Source of the DNA: Acidobacteriota bacterium
GTDB lineage: Bacteria; Acidobacteriota; Blastocatellia; Pyrinomonadales; Pyrinomonadaceae
NCBI GenBank assembly: GCA_020199835.1
Contig: JAIVJV010000009.1
Coordinates: 682,001-746,000, forward strand
Direction of reading: 5' to 3'
Length of the DNA stretch: 64,000 nt
In this document: piece after piece, positions 18,110 through 25,500 of the stretch
Numbering within the stretch: position 1 is the first letter of the stretch
How the letters are laid out: the number at the start of each line of letters is the position of its first letter
Translations under genes and position numbers: made by a program
The notes under the pieces: model-generated
The model's database searches: none
Told to the model about the DNA's origin: nothing
Seen by the model: the letters and a program-made list of their open reading frames with translations, nothing else

Positions 18110-18201
18110 TGTGTCGCCTCCATGGAGTGGACTGAAAAGGCAAGCCTGCGGAGTTTGGCATGGTCTTGTAAATCTTGCAATCCTGTCTTAGTGTTGAGGC
18201 C

Positions 18202-19158
18202 ATGTTTCCGTTCAGAAACATCCTCTTCCCAACGGATTTTTCTGCACACTCTCATGCCGCTTTGAAATACGCCGCGGGCTTTGCGCGCGATGGCTCAGGA
18301 CGGGTCTTGTTGCTGAACGTACAGGACGCAAAAGTGCCGGCGAATCTGTTGACGCTTCCGGCCTACGTTTTCGAAGAACAAGAGAACAACTGGTTACTCG
18401 ACCTGCGCACGCGGGCGAAAGAATTGCTCGCGGATCCGCTGCTGGATGGCGTTGAAGTCGAGCCGATGTTTGTCGACGGCGAACCCGCGACGGAGATCGC
18501 GCGCGTTGCGTTTGAACACGAGGTCGATCTCATCACGGTCGCGACGCGCGATCGCAGTCGCATCCGGCGCGCGTTTGGTGGGTCGAACACCGAAGAGATC
18601 GTCGCTGAAGCGCCGTGCGCGGTGCTCGCGGTCCGCCCGCCGCAACGCGATTTTGTCGAACATCGCGGCGGACAAACGCAATTACGTCTCAATCGGGTGT
18701 TGTTGGCGACTAACTTTGGTCCGTCATCCGCGGCTGCGACGCAGCTCGCCACGAACATCGTGAACCATCTCGGCGCGGAGCTTCATGCGGTTTACGTGAT
18801 TGGTGATTATTTCGAACAGATTTCCGCGATCTTTCCGGAAGGCGGCCTCGCCGCGTTAACGCGATTGCGTAGTCACGCGCAGGAACGCATGTCCCAACTC
18901 TCGCGCTCCTCCGGTCCGACAGCCAGCACGCACGTCGTCGAAGGCCGGCCTTACCAGGAGATCGTCAAACTCGCGGCCTATATCGATGCGGATCTGATCG
19001 TCGTCGGCACTGCGGTGCACGGTTCATTGTTTGGCAGTAATCAGGTGCTTGGCTCGGAGACGGAGCGCGTCATTCGCAACGCGCCGTGTCCGGTGCTGTG
19101 CGTTCCGGCAGCGAAAGTTGTTACGCCATTGCCCGCGCTGGTGACGCAGGCGGTGTGA
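18202..19158 (+). CDS. Universal stress protein with two UspA domains
   Basis: 318 residues from the ATG at 18202, which begins exactly at the first domain (FPFRNILFPTDFSAHSHAAL). Domain 1 covers about 1-145 and domain 2 about 155-310. The second has an ATP-type loop, VGTAVHGSLFGSNQVLGSETE, before the terminal APCPVLCVP; the first has FGGSNTEEIVAEAPCAVLAV. USP proteins bind ATP or other ligands and help survival under stress. It converges on the selenocysteine-type rhodanese gene; only three bases separate the two stop codons. Confidence 0.9.
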   Translation: MFPFRNILFPTDFSAHSHAALKYAAGFARDGSGRVLLLNVQDAKVPANLLTLPAYVFEEQENNWLLDLRTRAKELLADPLLDGVEVEPMFVDGEPATEIARVAFEHEVDLITVATRDRSRIRRAFGGSNTEEIVAEAPCAVLAVRPPQRDFVEHRGGQTQLRLNRVLLATNFGPSSAAATQLATNIVNHLGAELHAVYVIGDYFEQISAIFPEGGLAALTRLRSHAQERMSQLSRSSGPTASTHVVEGRPYQEIVKLAAYIDADLIVVGTAVHGSLFGSNQVLGSETERVIRNAPCPVLCVPAAKVVTPLPALVTQAV

Positions 19159-19161
19159 GTT

Positions 19162-19611
19162 TTAGTTCTTCTTTTCGACCGGCTTATTCTGCTGTTTCCA
19201 GAGATTGAACCCACCCAGCAACGCTGCTGCGTTTTCGATTCCTTTTTTCTTGAGCTCGACCACCGCACCGGCGGACGTATGTTCGTTTGTTCAAGAACAG
19301 TAGGTCACGATGAGCTTGTCGCTCGGTAGCTCCTTCGTGCGACTCCCGATGACGTCCACAGGAATCAGCTTGGCGCCGGGAATGTGCCCGACGTCGTAAG
19401 CGTCCTGGCTGCGCACGTCAACGACGAAAGCTTTTCCTTCTTTGAGCAGCGCTTCGAGTTCGTCGATGTTGATGCGGCGCGCGCCCTCAGGATGGGGCGT
19501 TGGCGTGGGTGTAGATTTTTGTGCCTGACTGCTGGTTTTGCTGTCGAGAGCGTTACACGCGAACAGCGTGGCGAGGAGCAAAACACTAATCGAATATGTA
19601 AAAAGACGCAT
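19162..19611 (-). CDS. Rhodanese lipoprotein with in-frame UGA, probable selenoprotein
   Basis: 149 residues if UGA is read through. Start at the ATG at 19611, with GGAGGT upstream. The N-terminus is a lipoprotein signal with lipobox LFAC. The rhodanese domain runs from RRINIDELEALLKEGK to the end. The active-site region reads TYCS, then UGA (19293-19291, residue 107), then TNEHTSAGAVVELKKKGIEN and a normal rhodanese end, LLGGFNLWKQ, with TAA at 19164-19162. The frame stays open for 42 codons after UGA and completes the fold, and UGA sits where many relatives have the second Cys of a Cys-x-Cys motif. A SECIS-like hairpin follows. Alternatives are a recent nonsense mutation or a base-call error. 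Probable role: persulfide or sulfane-sulfur handling outside the inner membrane. Confidence 0.75.
19261..19277 (-). promoter_or_regulatory. Candidate bacterial SECIS hairpin
   Basis: On the minus-strand transcript, positions +14 to +30 after the UGA can fold into a hairpin: four G-C pairs (CCGC with GCGG), a CGGU loop with two G residues at +22 and +23, an unpaired U at +16, and two further pairs below it. Loop distance, loop Gs and the bulged U agree with the known layout of bacterial SECIS elements. The stem is short, and no folding program was run. Confidence 0.5.
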
Positions 19612-19717
19612 TACGTACCTCCCTTGAGTAACGCCTAATTTGTGGCGCGGAAGAGGATTTGTCAATCTCCTCACTGGGAAATGTTATAGTCTGGCTCCCG
19701 AAACCTGGAGCTTGTCT

Positions 19718-21253
19718 ATGACGGAGTCGCCGGCCCCGATTCAGTGGGCCAAGGTAATCGACCATACACGCTGTATCGGCTGTCACGCGTGCACCACCGC
19801 CTGCAAGTCTGAAAACGTCGTTCCGATTTCCGTCACGCGCACATACGTCAAACACGTTGACGTCGGCGTGTTTCCGCAGGCGCGACGAGCGCACCAGGTA
19901 ACACGTTGCAACCAGTGCGCCCACGCTCCGTGCGTAACCGCGTGTCCGACGTCGGCGATGTTCCAACGCAGCGACGGCATTGTCGATTTTGATAAATCGA
20001 TCTGTATCGGTTGCAAGGCCTGCATGGCCGCGTGTCCTTACGACGCCATCTTCATCAACCCCGAAGATCATTCAGCAGAGAAGTGTAACTTCTGCGCGCA
20101 CCGCATTGACATCGGACTCGAACCGGCGTGCGTTGTCGTCTGTCCGACACAGGCGATTCTGGTTGGCGACATGAATGACGGGGATTCTTATGTCGCGCAG
20201 ATCATTAATCGCGAAAGCGTCGCCGTGCGGCGGCCGGAAAAAGAGACGCTGCCGAAACTGTTTTATAAAGGCGCGCACCAGGCGACGCTCGATCCACTCG
20301 CTGCGCGACGGCCGGAAGGCGGGCTGTTCATGTGGAGCGAACAACAGTTAGGCACCGACACCGTCGTTTCCGGCAATCCGAATTACAACAACTCGTCCGC
20401 GGCCGCGTTGCTTTCATACGACGTGGCGCATTCGATTCCGTGGGACTGGCGCGTCAGTTTGTACACGTGGACCAAGGGCATCGCGTCGGGTGTTTACCTC
20501 GTGGCTGCGTTGCTGATGTTGTTTGGAGTGATTCGCGCAGACGACGCGATTTGGTATTGGGCGGCACCGGTGATCTCGGGCGCGTTTTTGGCAATCACCG
20601 GAGGCTTGTTGCTTTGGGACCTTGAACACCCGGAACGTTTCTTTTTGATCTTCACGCGGCCGCAGTGGCGGAGTTGGCTGGTGAAAGGCGCCTTCATCAT
20701 TGCCGGCTACTCGCTGGTGTTGCTGGTTCACTTCATCGCCAGTTTGGCTGGTTGGCTTTCGCTCCAGGTATACCTGATGATCGCGGGCATTCCGTTGTCA
20801 GTACTGACGGCTGTTTACACCGCGTACCTGTTCGCGCAAGCGAAGGCGCGCGACATGTGGCAAAACCCGCTACTGCCACCGCATTTACTGGTGCAGGCCG
20901 TTTTGTTGGGTTCGGCGGTGTTGTTATTGGGTTACGGACCGCGGATTACACTGATTTGGATCCTGGCGATCGCGAGCCTCGTTCATCTACTGATGATCTG
21001 GGGTGAGGTTTCAGTGACGCACCCGACAGCGCACGCGCGACTTGCGATTCACGAGATGGTCCATGGCCGATTTCGACGCGACTTCTGGATCGGAACGATC
21101 CTTTCTTTTTTCGGCGGCTTGCTGCCGTGGCTGGCAATTCTGGACGTCGTGAGCCTGCCAATCGGTGCGGCCGGAGCGCCGCTCGCGTTGGTCGGGATGG
21201 TGCTTTTTGAAAACGCGTACGTGCAGGCTGGCCAGTCGGTGCCGCTGGCGTAA
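19718..21253 (+). CDS. Fusion of NrfC-like four-cluster ferredoxin and NrfD-type membrane anchor
   Basis: 511 residues from the ATG at 19718 (GGAG upstream); an earlier in-frame start would precede the conserved WAKVIDHTRCIGCHACTTAC. Residues 19-170 carry four 4Fe-4S motifs (CIGCHAC, CNQCAHAPC, CIGCKAC, CNFCAHR and partners). From about residue 235 come eight or so membrane helices of the PsrC/NrfD family, including WTKGIASGVYLVAALLMLFG. In most such complexes these are two subunits; here they are one chain. It should pass electrons between the catalytic subunit encoded next (six bases downstream) and the quinone pool. Confidence 0.9.
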   Translation: MTESPAPIQWAKVIDHTRCIGCHACTTACKSENVVPISVTRTYVKHVDVGVFPQARRAHQVTRCNQCAHAPCVTACPTSAMFQRSDGIVDFDKSICIGCKACMAACPYDAIFINPEDHSAEKCNFCAHRIDIGLEPACVVVCPTQAILVGDMNDGDSYVAQIINRESVAVRRPEKETLPKLFYKGAHQATLDPLAARRPEGGLFMWSEQQLGTDTVVSGNPNYNNSSAAALLSYDVAHSIPWDWRVSLYTWTKGIASGVYLVAALLMLFGVIRADDAIWYWAAPVISGAFLAITGGLLLWDLEHPERFFLIFTRPQWRSWLVKGAFIIAGYSLVLLVHFIASLAGWLSLQVYLMIAGIPLSVLTAVYTAYLFAQAKARDMWQNPLLPPHLLVQAVLLGSAVLLLGYGPRITLIWILAIASLVHLLMIWGEVSVTHPTAHARLAIHEMVHGRFRRDFWIGTILSFFGGLLPWLAILDVVSLPIGAAGAPLALVGMVLFENAYVQAGQSVPLA

Positions 21254-21259
21254 AGGAAC

Positions 21260-24088
21260 ATGTCTCAGTCAAATAAAAAGGAAACGTTTTACCCGGGGCC
21301 GAGCCGCGGGCATCTGGCGGCGTTCCCGCCGAAAGAGCGTTGGGACGATTGGACCGAACTCGATTCGCGCGCATGGCCGCGGCGTGTCGAACGGCACTAT
21401 TCGATCGTTCCGACCACGTGTTTCAACTGCGAATCCGCGTGCGGGCTGCTCGCTTACATCGACAAAGTCACCGGTGACGTGCAGAAGTTTGAAGGCAATC
21501 CCGAACACCCCGGCTCGCGGGGGCGCAATTGCGCCAAAGGTCCCGCGACGCTGAACCAGGTCACTGATCCCGATCGCATCCTGTATCCAATGAGACGCGC
21601 CGGCAGACGCGGTGAAGGAAAGTGGGAACGCACCACCTGGAACGAAGTACTCGATACACTTGCGAATCGAATTGGTAAGGCGATCCGCGAGAATCGTCGC
21701 CAGGAGATCATGTATCACGTGGGAAGGCCAGGGGAGGATGGTTTTACCGAACGCATTCTTGCGGCGTGGGGAATCGATGGGCACAACTCACACACGAATA
21801 TCTGTTCGTCCGGCAGCCGCGAAGGGTATCAATTGTGGATGGGTCTAGATCGGCCCAGTCCTGATCATGCGAACGCGAAAGTGATACTGCTGATCAGCGC
21901 GCACCTCGAGTCCGGGCATTACTTCAATCCGCATGCGCAGCGCGTGATCGATGGCAAGGCGAATGGCGCGAAGTTGATCGTGTTTGACACGAGGCTTTCG
22001 CACACCGCAACGCACGCGGATTATTGGGTTTCACCGTATCCCGGTTCGGAGACTGCGATTCTGCTGGCCATCGCGAACTATTTGATTCAGAACGAACTCT
22101 ACAATCGAGATTTCGTCGAAGAGTGGTGGAATTGGAAGGAGTTTGCCGCGAATTTTGCGGATTTTGAAAGAAGGATTAAGGAGATCTACAGGGAGTACAC
22201 CTTTGAGTTTGCGGCGGCGGAGTCGGGTGTTGATGCGAAAGTAATAAAAGAGATTGCGGAGCTGGTTGCTGGGGCGGGAACCAGATTTTCGAGTCACAAC
22301 TGGCGCAGCGCCGCCTCGGGCGTGAGTGGCGGTTGGTCCGTCGCACGCTGCCTGTTCATGATCAACGCGCTTCTCGGCGCGATCGCCACTGAAGGCGGCG
22401 TTTATCCAAACGCCTGGAACAAATTCGTTCCGCGGCCCATCTACACACCGCCACATCCAAACATGTGGAACGAGATCACCTGGCCGCGCGAGTACCCACT
22501 CTCCATGAACGAGATGTCGTTCCTGCTGCCGCACTTCCTCAAAGACGGCCGCGCGAAGCTCGACGTTTATTTCACTCGTGTCTACAACCCGGTTTGGACC
22601 AACCCCGACGGCTTCTCGTGGATCGAGATGCTAACTGACCCCGAACTCGTCGGCTGCTACGTTGCGCTCACGCCAACGTGGAACGAGACTGCGTATTACG
22701 CCGACTACGTCTTACCAATGGGCGTCGGCTCGGAACGTCACGATCTTCACTCGTACGAGACACACGATTCGCAGTGGCTCGGCTTTCGGCAACCAGTAAT
22801 GCGCGCCGCGCGCGAGCGTCTCGGCGAAACCGTCAACGACACGCGCGAGGTGAATCCCGGCGAGGTTTGGGAAGAGAACGAGTTTTGGCTCGAACTCACG
22901 TGGCGTATCGATCCCGATGGCAGTCTCGGCATTCGCCAGTACGCCGAAAGCAAAAAGAATCCCGGCACGCGTCTCGGCGTCGACGAATACTACGAATGGA
23001 TCTTCGATCATTCCGTGCCGGGCCTGCCGGAAAAAGCAGCGGCCGAAAACCTGACGCCACTCGAGTTCATGCGTCGTTACGGCGCATTTGAAGTGACACG
23101 AAAGATTGGCCGGATATACGATCAAACCGTTGGACCAGAAGAGCTCGACGACTTGCGTGAAGATCAGTTTGGCCGCATCTTTACACGCGCTCCGAAACCC
23201 GCTGGACCAAACATCGTCCCGCTACCCATGCCTGACGGCGACGCAGACGGTCGGCGGTTCGCGGGCGTTAACATTAACGGCGAAATCAAACGCGGCTTTC
23301 CCACACCAAGCGGAAAACTCGAGTTCTATTCAACCACTCTGGCCAACTGGGGTTGGCCAGAGCTGGCTATTCCGACTTACTTCAAAAGCCACGTTCACAA
23401 AGACAATCTCGCACCCGACCAAACGATCCTGATCTCGACGTTTCGTTTGCCCGTGCAGATCCACACGCGCAGTGCGAACTCCAAATGGCTCGACGAGATC
23501 GCGCACACGAACCCGCTTTGGATTCATCCGAGCCACGCAAACAAACTCGGCGTTCGCACGGGCGATCTAGTGCGCGTCGAAACGGAAATCGGTTACTACG
23601 TCGTGCCGGCGTGGGTCACGGAAGGAATCAAACCGGGAATCGTCGCGTGTAGTCATCACATGGGCCGCTGGAAACTCGGCGATGGCGAAGGGCAACGGCA
23701 GTTGATGGCGACGGTGAAGTTGGAACAGAGCGGAAGCAGGTGGCGTTTGAAACGAGAGAAGGGTATCGCGCCGTACGAGTCGAATGATGCTGACACGTTG
23801 CGCATCTGGTGGAAAGACGCGGGAGTGCACCAGAACATGACTTTTCCGGTTCATCCCGATCCGATCTCTGGCATGCATTGCTGGCACCAGGCCGTGCGTG
23901 TGCGCGCCGCAAATGCAGAGGATCAACCGGGCGACATTTTTGTCGACACGGAATTGTCACGCGAGGTCTATAAAAAGTGGCTGGCGATGACGCGCCCGGC
24001 GGACCAGTTTTCGCCGGATCGAACGCGCCGGCCCTACTGGATGTTGCGGCCGTTGAAACCGGGCCGTGAGTTTTATAAGCTGCCGTAG
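21260..24088 (+). CDS. Molybdopterin oxidoreductase catalytic subunit (Psr/Phs/Soe-like)
   Basis: 942 residues of the DMSO-reductase superfamily. A 4Fe-4S site is formed by Cys54, Cys57, Cys61 and Cys91 (TTCFNCESACG, NCAKGPAT). The likely molybdenum ligand is Cys182 in SHTNICSSGSREG. The C-terminal cofactor-binding domain starts near residue 700. There is no twin-arginine signal, so it probably works on the cytoplasmic side, like SoeA sulfite dehydrogenase and unlike most polysulfide or thiosulfate reductases. The fused NrfC-NrfD gene precedes it and a persulfide dioxygenase-like gene follows 11 bases later, which favours an oxidised-sulfur substrate. The substrate is inferred only. Confidence 0.88.
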   Translation: MSQSNKKETFYPGPSRGHLAAFPPKERWDDWTELDSRAWPRRVERHYSIVPTTCFNCESACGLLAYIDKVTGDVQKFEGNPEHPGSRGRNCAKGPATLNQVTDPDRILYPMRRAGRRGEGKWERTTWNEVLDTLANRIGKAIRENRRQEIMYHVGRPGEDGFTERILAAWGIDGHNSHTNICSSGSREGYQLWMGLDRPSPDHANAKVILLISAHLESGHYFNPHAQRVIDGKANGAKLIVFDTRLSHTATHADYWVSPYPGSETAILLAIANYLIQNELYNRDFVEEWWNWKEFAANFADFERRIKEIYREYTFEFAAAESGVDAKVIKEIAELVAGAGTRFSSHNWRSAASGVSGGWSVARCLFMINALLGAIATEGGVYPNAWNKFVPRPIYTPPHPNMWNEITWPREYPLSMNEMSFLLPHFLKDGRAKLDVYFTRVYNPVWTNPDGFSWIEMLTDPELVGCYVALTPTWNETAYYADYVLPMGVGSERHDLHSYETHDSQWLGFRQPVMRAARERLGETVNDTREVNPGEVWEENEFWLELTWRIDPDGSLGIRQYAESKKNPGTRLGVDEYYEWIFDHSVPGLPEKAAAENLTPLEFMRRYGAFEVTRKIGRIYDQTVGPEELDDLREDQFGRIFTRAPKPAGPNIVPLPMPDGDADGRRFAGVNINGEIKRGFPTPSGKLEFYSTTLANWGWPELAIPTYFKSHVHKDNLAPDQTILISTFRLPVQIHTRSANSKWLDEIAHTNPLWIHPSHANKLGVRTGDLVRVETEIGYYVVPAWVTEGIKPGIVACSHHMGRWKLGDGEGQRQLMATVKLEQSGSRWRLKREKGIAPYESNDADTLRIWWKDAGVHQNMTFPVHPDPISGMHCWHQAVRVRAANAEDQPGDIFVDTELSREVYKKWLAMTRPADQFSPDRTRRPYWMLRPLKPGREFYKLP

Positions 24089-24099
24089 CTGAGGAATCC

Positions 24100-25500
24100 A
24101 TGTACTTCAAGCAGTTTTATCTCGCCTGTTTGGCCCACGCTTCTTATCTCATCGGCTCCCATGGCGAAGCTGCGGTTGTCGATCCGCAACGCGACGTTGA
24201 CGAATACATCACCGAGGCTGAGAGGCAGGGACTCAAGATCAAGTACGTCATCGAAACGCACCTGCACGCCGATTTTGTCAGCGGCCATCAGGAACTCGCC
24301 GCACGCACCGGAGCAGAGATCGTGTTCGGCGAAAAGGCGCGCGCCACATTCGAGCATCGCGCCGTCAGCGACGGTGAACAGATCAAGATAGGTAAAGTTG
24401 TTTTGGAGTTTATGGAAACGCCGGGTCACACGCCTGAAGGAATCTGCGTCCTCGTCACCGATACCGAAGTCTCGAATCAACCGCAAAAAATCCTGACGGG
24501 TGACACGCTTTTCATCGGCGACGTGGGCCGTCCCGATCTCGCGGGCGGCAAAGGCTACACACCGCAAACTATGGCCGAGATGATGTATGACAGTCTCCAC
24601 GGCAAGATTCTCAAGCTGCCTGATGAAGTTGAGGTTTATCCCGCGCACGGCGCGGGCTCGATGTGCGGCAAAAACATGTCGAAGGAAACATGGTCGACCA
24701 TCGGGGAGCAGCGGAAGTTTAATTACGCGCTGAAGCCGATGACGAAGGACCAGTTTGTCTCGATGATGACTGCAGATCTTCCCGAAGCGCCGGCGTATTT
24801 CCCGCGCGACGCCGAGATCAATCGTTCGGGCGCGCGTGAACTGTCGGAGTTGTCGCCGCCGCAGGCTTTGTCGCCGCAAGCGGTTTCGGAGTTGCGCGAG
24901 CAGGGACACGTGTTGCTCGACGTGCGTTCCGCGGCTGATTACGGCGCGGGGCATGTGCCCGGGTCAGTGAACATCGGACTCGGCGGCCAGTTTGCGATTT
25001 GGGCCGGCAGTTTGATTCCTCTAAACTCGGCCATCATTTTGATCGCGGACACGGCGGCCCAGGTTCACGAATCCGTGGTCCGGCTCGCGCGCGTCGGCAT
25101 CGAGAACGTCAAAGGTTATCTGGAAGGCGGAGTGGAAAACTGGCGCCGCGCTGGACTCGCCGTTGAATCGATCCCTCAGGTCAGCGTCGATGAGTTGAAA
25201 GAAAAACTGGCAAGCACTGCGGATCTGCAAGTCGTCGACGTGCGGCGGCCGGGCGAGTATGGCAACGGTCACGTGCCGCGCGCGCTCAACGCGCCGCTCG
25301 CAACTCTCGATCGCGTCGCCGGCGAGTTGCCGTTGGAAAAAGACAAACCAACGGCGGTGATCTGCGCGGGTGGTTATCGTTCGAGCGCCGCAGCAAGTTT
25401 GTTGGAGAGGTTTGGCTATACCAACCTGCTGAACGTTTCGGGCGGCACCGGAGCGTGGATTAACGCCGGTTTCCCCGTCGAAACCCCCACCACAAAATAA
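24100..25500 (+). CDS. Metallo-beta-lactamase fold protein with two rhodanese domains, persulfide dioxygenase-like
   Basis: 466 residues. Residues 1-230 are an MBL-fold domain with THLHADF (His54, His56, Asp58), TPGHTPEG and GDTLFIGDVGRPDL, typical of ETHE1/Blh-type persulfide dioxygenases that turn glutathione or protein persulfide into sulfite. Two rhodanese domains follow (about 265-350 and 365-460). The second has its catalytic Cys422 in CAGGYRS; the first has lost it (ILIADTAAQV). It follows the molybdopterin subunit by 11 bases. In this setting sulfite made here could be the substrate of that enzyme. Hydrolase activity instead of dioxygenase cannot be excluded. Confidence 0.87.
   Translation: MYFKQFYLACLAHASYLIGSHGEAAVVDPQRDVDEYITEAERQGLKIKYVIETHLHADFVSGHQELAARTGAEIVFGEKARATFEHRAVSDGEQIKIGKVVLEFMETPGHTPEGICVLVTDTEVSNQPQKILTGDTLFIGDVGRPDLAGGKGYTPQTMAEMMYDSLHGKILKLPDEVEVYPAHGAGSMCGKNMSKETWSTIGEQRKFNYALKPMTKDQFVSMMTADLPEAPAYFPRDAEINRSGARELSELSPPQALSPQAVSELREQGHVLLDVRSAADYGAGHVPGSVNIGLGGQFAIWAGSLIPLNSAIILIADTAAQVHESVVRLARVGIENVKGYLEGGVENWRRAGLAVESIPQVSVDELKEKLASTADLQVVDVRRPGEYGNGHVPRALNAPLATLDRVAGELPLEKDKPTAVICAGGYRSSAAASLLERFGYTNLLNVSGGTGAWINAGFPVETPTTK

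Follow-up and report, generated by a model that had tools for sequence, protein, structure and literature searches.

A predicted selenocysteine-containing rhodanese lipoprotein with a CxU active-site pair in a member of the Acidobacteriota

The window (the whole stretch of 64,000 nucleotides analysed here, from an Acidobacteriota bacterium of the family Pyrinomonadaceae) carries on its minus strand a candidate selenoprotein gene of 149 residues, the UGA position included, which starts with an ATG (19611-19609) and ends with a TAA (19164-19162). The gene, its elements and its neighbours are listed in Table 1. The frame holds a single in-frame UGA, in the context TYCSU, and then runs on for 42 codons before the TAA is reached; in this the coordinates agree with the initial annotation of the locus, which had not named the strand. 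The readthrough product matches the Rhodanese family above the gathering score, and the match extends to both sides of the UGA. The N-terminus consists of a hydrophobic stretch followed by the lipobox-like LFAC, and a loose lipobox pattern matches 26 of 32 sequences (the window gene and its relatives); lipidation of the protein is thus predicted. Under translation table 11 the frame closes at the UGA and yields 127 residues from a GTG start. ORF callers truncate the gene, as had been anticipated, and standard annotation would probably stop it at the same codon.

Table 1. Positions of the predicted selenoprotein gene, its elements and its neighbours in the window, and of the tRNA-Sec genes on contigs (C) of the same genome.
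Feature	Position	Strand	Basis or remark
Predicted Sec-containing rhodanese lipoprotein gene, complete, 149 aa, ATG to TAA	19162..19611	-	Frame, Pfam match, relatives
Lipobox-like LFAC; Cys20 predicted lipidation site	19552..19563	-	Sequence; lipidation inferred
Rhodanese domain PF00581, residues 50-140, spans the UGA	19192..19464	-	60 bits; gathering score 22.2
Cys105 codon (TGT), first of the CxU pair	19297..19299	-	Invariant in alignment A1; opposite the Cys of 3tp9, 5ve3, 3nhv and 3o3w; probably the canonical rhodanese Cys
In-frame UGA, codon 107, predicted selenocysteine	19291..19293	-	UGA in 31/32 and TGC in 1/32 aligned sequences
Predicted SECIS hairpin: five upper pairs, loop GGUGC, two lower pairs	19257..19277	-	Fold, codon constraint, pairing across relatives
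Universal-stress-type protein (named by eye), ends in TGA	18175..19158	+	Relative in 8/30 loci, own included
4Fe-4S protein, TtrB/NrfC-like (scores below cut-offs), joined to a membrane part resembling NrfD (by eye)	19640..21253	+	
Molybdopterin oxidoreductase; nearest model PhsA (thiosulfate reductase)	21260..24088	+	208.6 bits; cut-off 694
Metallo-beta-lactamase fold and rhodanese domains; Blh model	24100..25500	+	63.9 bits; cut-off 625
tRNA-Sec(UCA) genes of the window's genome (L012-L015)	C15:157847, C6:100783, C6:98652, C11:35942		

Relatives were searched for in 59 genomes (the window's own and those of the same genus, family and class); the query was the window protein, its UGA residue replaced by Cys. 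Exactly one in-frame TGA was present in 36 of the 37 matches with an E-value up to 1.5e-20, and none in the remaining one (genome G007). The critical column was inspected in 32 sequences out of these 37 matches, the window gene included; they represent 30 loci, one per genome, two of which (L037 and L047) contribute a second copy. The column holds UGA in 31 of the 32 sequences and TGC (Cys) in one, L034, which bears out the expectation that either residue would be found there, and the motif YC[SAT]U is present in 31 of the 32. The relatives that keep the UGA share 39-63% identity over 111-147 residues; the sequences compared are related and not independent. Among the weaker-scoring matches many rhodaneses lack a TGA; the UGA is therefore typical of this clade and of some paralogues, not of rhodaneses in general. 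Public genomes were also scanned, using a pattern that demands Cys at the critical column and so can find only Cys forms and does not address the frequency of UGA forms; this yielded nine stretches, of which seven were confirmed as Cys forms, one of them from Pyrinomonas methylaliphatogenes K22. These seven loci, together with the Cys of L034, are what could be cited for a base-call or assembly error with TGC or TGT as the true codon. Such an error would need to have arisen again and again, in 31 of 32 sequences from 30 genomes, alongside a constrained hairpin (see below), and because the same UGA is seen in many separately assembled genomes we consider it very unlikely, to the point of being negligible.

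Further rhodaneses with an in-frame TGA were seen. The second UGA copy adjoins the first in both L037 (G021:C259) and L047 (G044:C66). The window's genome (G000) has three more: L063 (C7:412647-413075), on an antiporter-like protein with the motif YCAU; L064 (C18:270297-270620), apparently soluble, with TYCTU; and L062 (C11:43237-43539), in which the TGA is placed further on (YCSSPTU). In L063 and L064 all five hairpin pairs described below can form, with the loop CGGGU and not GU.

Downstream of the UGA, the minus strand can form the hairpin CCGCC-GGUGC-GGUGG at 19274-19260. In the upper stem 19274-19270 pair with 19264-19260, the apical loop GGUGC occupies 19269-19265, and two additional pairs lie beneath the stem across a U/U mismatch; the spacing between UGA and apical loop is 21 nt. 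The consensus structure has a 5-nt loop and 5 bp, the single-sequence fold a 3-nt loop and 6 bp. The minimum free energy is −11.6 kcal/mol for 61 nt. Limits for bacterial SECIS elements are given in PMC13188914 (Fig. 2 legend): a loop of 3-9 nt, an upper stem of 4-16 bp, a G in the first two loop positions, a minimum free energy of at most −7.5 kcal/mol, and 16-37 nt between UGA and apical loop. When checked by hand, the hairpin of the window lies within all of these printed limits. It is not unusually stable: an equally good or better fold was obtained for 94 of 200 dinucleotide shuffles (z = −0.02), and the case for the hairpin rests on conservation, not on stability. The initial annotation had described a loop containing G, a suitable distance and a bulged U. 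The first two are borne out; the U in question faces another U, and the position is not conserved (A in 23, U in 8 and G in 1 of the 32 sequences).

Conservation of the hairpin was assessed from codon choice and from pairing in the 32 aligned sequences, and the synonymous sites are constrained beyond what the protein sequence requires. At codon +7 Ala is encoded by GCC in all 31 Ala codons, at codon +8 (Gly, Arg or Ser) the third base is T in 32/32, and at codon +9 Ala is encoded by GCG in 26 of 26. Ser at codon +6 uses only AGC (22), TCC (8) and AGT (1). Relative to pooled usage, codons +6 to +9 gave z values of −9 to −18, against −2.7 to +3.1 for codons +11 to +24. Large positive values at columns +1 and +4 (z = 35 and 15) reflect Pro and His, which are nearly absent elsewhere in the pooled stretch, and the upstream columns −4 and −8 were also low (−5.3 and −4.7); the argument from codon constraint is based on the block +6 to +9. 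In the alignment of the hairpin region (A3) the five pairs are formed by columns 20-24 with 30-34, and 95.6% of the 160 cells are paired. Pair 20-34 is G-C in 18 sequences, C-G in 8, G-U in 1 and unpaired in 5 (of 32), and the choice between AGC and TCC for Ser +6 tracks the swap between G-C and C-G. Pair 21-33 has one U-A in place of C-G and is unpaired in two sequences; pair 22-32 varies between G-U, G-C and A-U. With the partner strand slid by 1-3 columns, only 27-61% of the cells pair. None of 500 shuffles reached the observed percentage paired, the number of double-change cells or the covariation score; the count of double-changed pairs was reached by 15 of 500 and the count of pair types by 237 of 500, which speaks against the hairpin.

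The loop carries a G at its second position in 32/32 sequences, and GU at positions 2-3 in all 31 UGA forms of the clade and in L034, against none of the seven Cys forms from other genomes; three of those seven cluster with paralogues, and lineage thus accounts for part of the contrast. Pairing alone is unspecific, as the Cys form L070 has all five pairs and three other Cys forms have four. The scores of a covariance model built from A3 are not counted as proof of a SECIS element: it matches Cys forms as well (L070 with 38 bits, L074 with 26.7 and L073 with 22.5), since the model carries coding sequence.

Selection on the part of the gene beyond the UGA was estimated with the Nei-Gojobori method. 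Over 34 codons after the UGA, dN/dS was 0.05-0.26 in 10 out of 10 pairs of relatives. With the five SECIS codons left out, nine pairs gave 0.02-0.21, the tenth being saturated in dS. For comparison, eight pairs lay at 0.03-0.35 over the 38 codons before the UGA, and the other two were saturated in dS. Some members occur in more than one pair and dS is large in several cases, which makes the ratios rough ones. Purifying selection acts on the sequence beyond the UGA; such values would not be expected of a decaying half, and the earlier remark that it looked too intact for a pseudogene holds. That the UGA is a real stop and the gene truncated would fit with standard ORF calling, which halts there, and with the selB result for this assembly (see below). 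Relatives at 39-63% identity keep the UGA all the same, the low dN/dS extends through the second half and the hairpin codons are constrained, and a pseudogene is in our view extremely improbable.

The genes for selenocysteine decoding were sought in the genome of the window. selA was found with 547 bits and selD with 356 bits (L007, C12:165387-166316), the latter with an in-frame TGA of its own in the context CSGU. A predicted hairpin follows that TGA. Four tRNA-Sec genes with the anticodon UCA, differing in sequence, are present (Table 1); in a listing of 59 genomes made with a stricter filter, two tRNA-Sec genes above 60 bits were found only in G004, G016 and G031, and at most one in the others. 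As judged by eye, the copy on C15 adjoins dprA/topA-like genes and the copy on C11 lies near arsenic-type genes. The loci L014 and L015 share 926 bp at 82%. AhpC/TSA-like and AhpD-like frames (L062 9319-9639 and 11315-11857, minus strand; by eye) were seen near a tRNA-Sec copy; the AhpC/TSA-like frame, whose first codon is TTG, is possibly the second half of another UGA gene. Selenoproteins are already known from Acidobacteria (PMC1794560; PMC12013277).

A search with the selB model found no selB above the cut-off in the G000 assembly, which is 83% complete. Thus selA, selD and tRNA-Sec, which the initial annotation had proposed to look for, are present, and selB was not found. The model exceeded its cut-off in 34 of the 39 genomes searched, the others being G000, G001, G002, G005 and G010. 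One of these, G005 (93% complete, 990 contigs), has no selB match yet holds a UGA form (L032); assembly quality is the sole explanation that we can offer for this genome. In the congeneric genome G003 a bshA-like gene, named by eye, precedes selB. Comparison of this 4.9-kb bshA-selB stretch with the G000 DNA gave nothing longer than matches of about 90 bases, which fall on a repeat-like piece between the bshA-like gene and selB, and the best G000 match to the G003 bshA-like protein has 34% identity, so that no close relative of bshA was found there either. Given the completeness of 83%, a piece missing from the assembly is the likely, though not proven, reason for the absence of selB. A selB-model match at the contig edge (C14:8-85) was rejected, since by eye it is where an EF-Tu-like gene that adjoins tRNA genes begins, and the other G000 matches were taken, from their lengths only, as GTPases of the LepA/TypA/FusA type.

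The four differing tRNA-Sec(UCA) copies, together with the selB result, leave some room for recoding of the UGA by another residue or mechanism, such as a suppressor tRNA or read-through. The genome has selA and a UGA-containing selD, selB is found in 34 of 39 genomes, the hairpin lies within the bacterial SECIS limits, and the neighbouring gene at 18175-19158 terminates in TGA; such recoding is accordingly very improbable. The conservation of the UGA, the constrained hairpin, the purifying selection beyond the UGA and the Sec machinery other than selB are observed, and from these comparisons the UGA is very probably read as Sec, in a working selenoprotein gene that is recoded and not truncated. 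SelB, with Sec-tRNA-Sec (UCA), would recognise the hairpin 21 nt past the UGA, and Sec would be inserted in place of termination. The predicted product is a rhodanese-fold lipoprotein that would be anchored at the outer side of a membrane and carry Sec at position 107.

The single Cys form within the aligned clade was placed in a tree of 41 domains, for which the critical column was masked and in which bootstrap values had not yet converged. L034 (G007:C122:8051-8491) makes up a group of seven together with six UGA forms (98/82), and adjoins L035 and L036 (97/79). It retains the loop GGUGC and four of the five hairpin pairs. Another Cys form, L071, groups with two UGA forms (92/96). For L034 this suggests a switch from Sec to Cys with a relic of the hairpin, a lead in view of the unsettled bootstrap. 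Such a Sec/Cys switch is called rare in PMC13188914, and L034 would be a possible case of this rare kind.

The active-site loop reads YC-x-U, with Sec as the second residue of a CxU pair. C105 is invariant in alignment A1, and position 107 is occupied only by Sec or Cys. Comparison with known structures gave two registers: the Cys of 3tp9, 5ve3, 3nhv and 3o3w aligns with C105 (3tp9 and 5ve3 being two residues shorter after the Cys, 3nhv and 3o3w of the same length), and residue 107 is the position opposite the Cys in 1yt8 (domain 2) and in each of the two 6mxv domains. C105 is probably, but not certainly, at the position of the canonical rhodanese Cys; because the alignments disagree, the sequence does not settle the choice between 105 and 107. 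The placement of the UGA in the active-site loop, as first described, stands.

Cys105 and Sec107 could act as a C-x-U pair within the active-site loop. In the most economical reading one residue of the pair, probably C105, would accept the sulfur (sulfane sulfur or a different oxidised species), and its partner would resolve it via a transient selenenylsulfide. The protein would then be a thiol/persulfide redox relay and not a plain sulfurtransferase, which we put forward tentatively, at somewhat less than an even chance. An ordinary sulfurtransferase selenoprotein, with Sec doing no more than tune or replace the catalytic Cys, shares the Sec reading and competes with the relay step only. The Rhodanese domain scores above its threshold, and 1yt8 and 6mxv put a catalytic-type Cys opposite residue 107, where Sec could be the catalytic residue. 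Set against this, the invariance of C105 and the restriction of position 107 to Sec or Cys suggest a two-residue centre, and the Cys of 3tp9, 5ve3, 3nhv and 3o3w is aligned with C105. Given the disagreement between the alignments, the relay step is rated as clearly less probable than the selenoprotein reading, and the plain sulfurtransferase, which gains slightly, as almost as probable as the relay.

The neighbours bear on the functional setting of the predicted relay. The 4Fe-4S/NrfD-like gene lies within about 1.5 kb in 11 of 11 loci of the same genus (own included) and was found in none of the 19 other loci, within at most about 1.5 kb a side. Beyond it, the molybdopterin oxidoreductase and the metallo-beta-lactamase/rhodanese gene are found, among the loci inspected, in the window, L067, L068 and L069; in L068 another gene intervenes. 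The Blh model, which describes a sulfur transferase/dioxygenase, is among the matches of the gene at 24100..25500. The best models of the neighbours belong to TtrB/NrfC, PhsA and rhodanese- or glyoxalase-type families, and as all scores are below the cut-offs, 'sulfur-type' is as far as the naming can go. The PhsA/TtrB-like molybdoenzyme and persulfide-dioxygenase-like genes beside the seleno-rhodanese in its genus would fit with extracytoplasmic sulfur chemistry, and a role of the protein in such chemistry is likely on the basis of motif and neighbours. A wider picture, which is speculative and as a whole unlikely, is that the clade represents a seleno-rhodanese dedicated to an extracytoplasmic role, exchanging sulfane sulfur or electrons, in one direction or the other, with the neighbouring FeS/NrfD-like and molybdopterin enzyme and a persulfide-dioxygenase-like partner; Acidobacteriota-like bacteria would then have a sulfur relay that depends on selenium and is coupled to respiration.

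Rhodanese-like selenoproteins are described in five forms in PMC13188914, of which form 3 is the CxU form (model NF041203), credited there to Zhang and Gladyshev 2005; the CxU form also appears in PMC9312934. NF041203 (rhodanese_LYCAU, 'rhodanese-related (seleno)protein') shares the rhodanese domain and C-x-U with the window protein and is its best NCBIfam match (75.2 bits; cut-off 115). The model also matches each of the 30 members of alignment A1, of which none reaches 115, the best being L037 with 107.5. The window protein differs in having TYCSU, compared with LYCAU in the name of the model, and a lipobox-like N-terminus. By the cut-off it stands outside NF041203, though it is clearly related and, from its sequence, would clearly work in the same way. 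Automatic annotation would probably end at the UGA and the NF041203 cut-off is reached by none of the 30 members, so this group of seleno-rhodaneses is probably under-annotated in the class.

Other known systems are further removed. TsoB (NF045694), a rhodanese/DsbD fusion-like selenoprotein, likewise has a rhodanese part with Sec, but its motif is UxxxxU (PMC13188914) and its model comprises 572 positions, to which the window protein scores 22 bits against a cut-off of 805. The rhodanese-like forms 1, 2 and 4 (PF00581; PMC13188914) also share a rhodanese domain with Sec and are set apart by their listed motifs, UxxS, UxxG and UxxG, respectively, compared with CxU here. The single-domain rhodanese GlpE (NF001195) belongs to the same domain family (46.1 bits; the structure 1gmx was matched), but the window protein is below the cut-off of 102 and has an in-frame UGA and a lipobox. 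The matches listed in a literature search, which were mostly open-access and for one query very broad, included none on this clade. The initial annotation had proposed a new selenoprotein gene; the selenoprotein reading is supported, and its novelty is limited by the published CxU rhodanese selenoproteins. Overall, the predicted protein is a divergent additional member of this already published CxU kind, in which the CxU pair is placed on a predicted lipoprotein beside sulfur-type genes.
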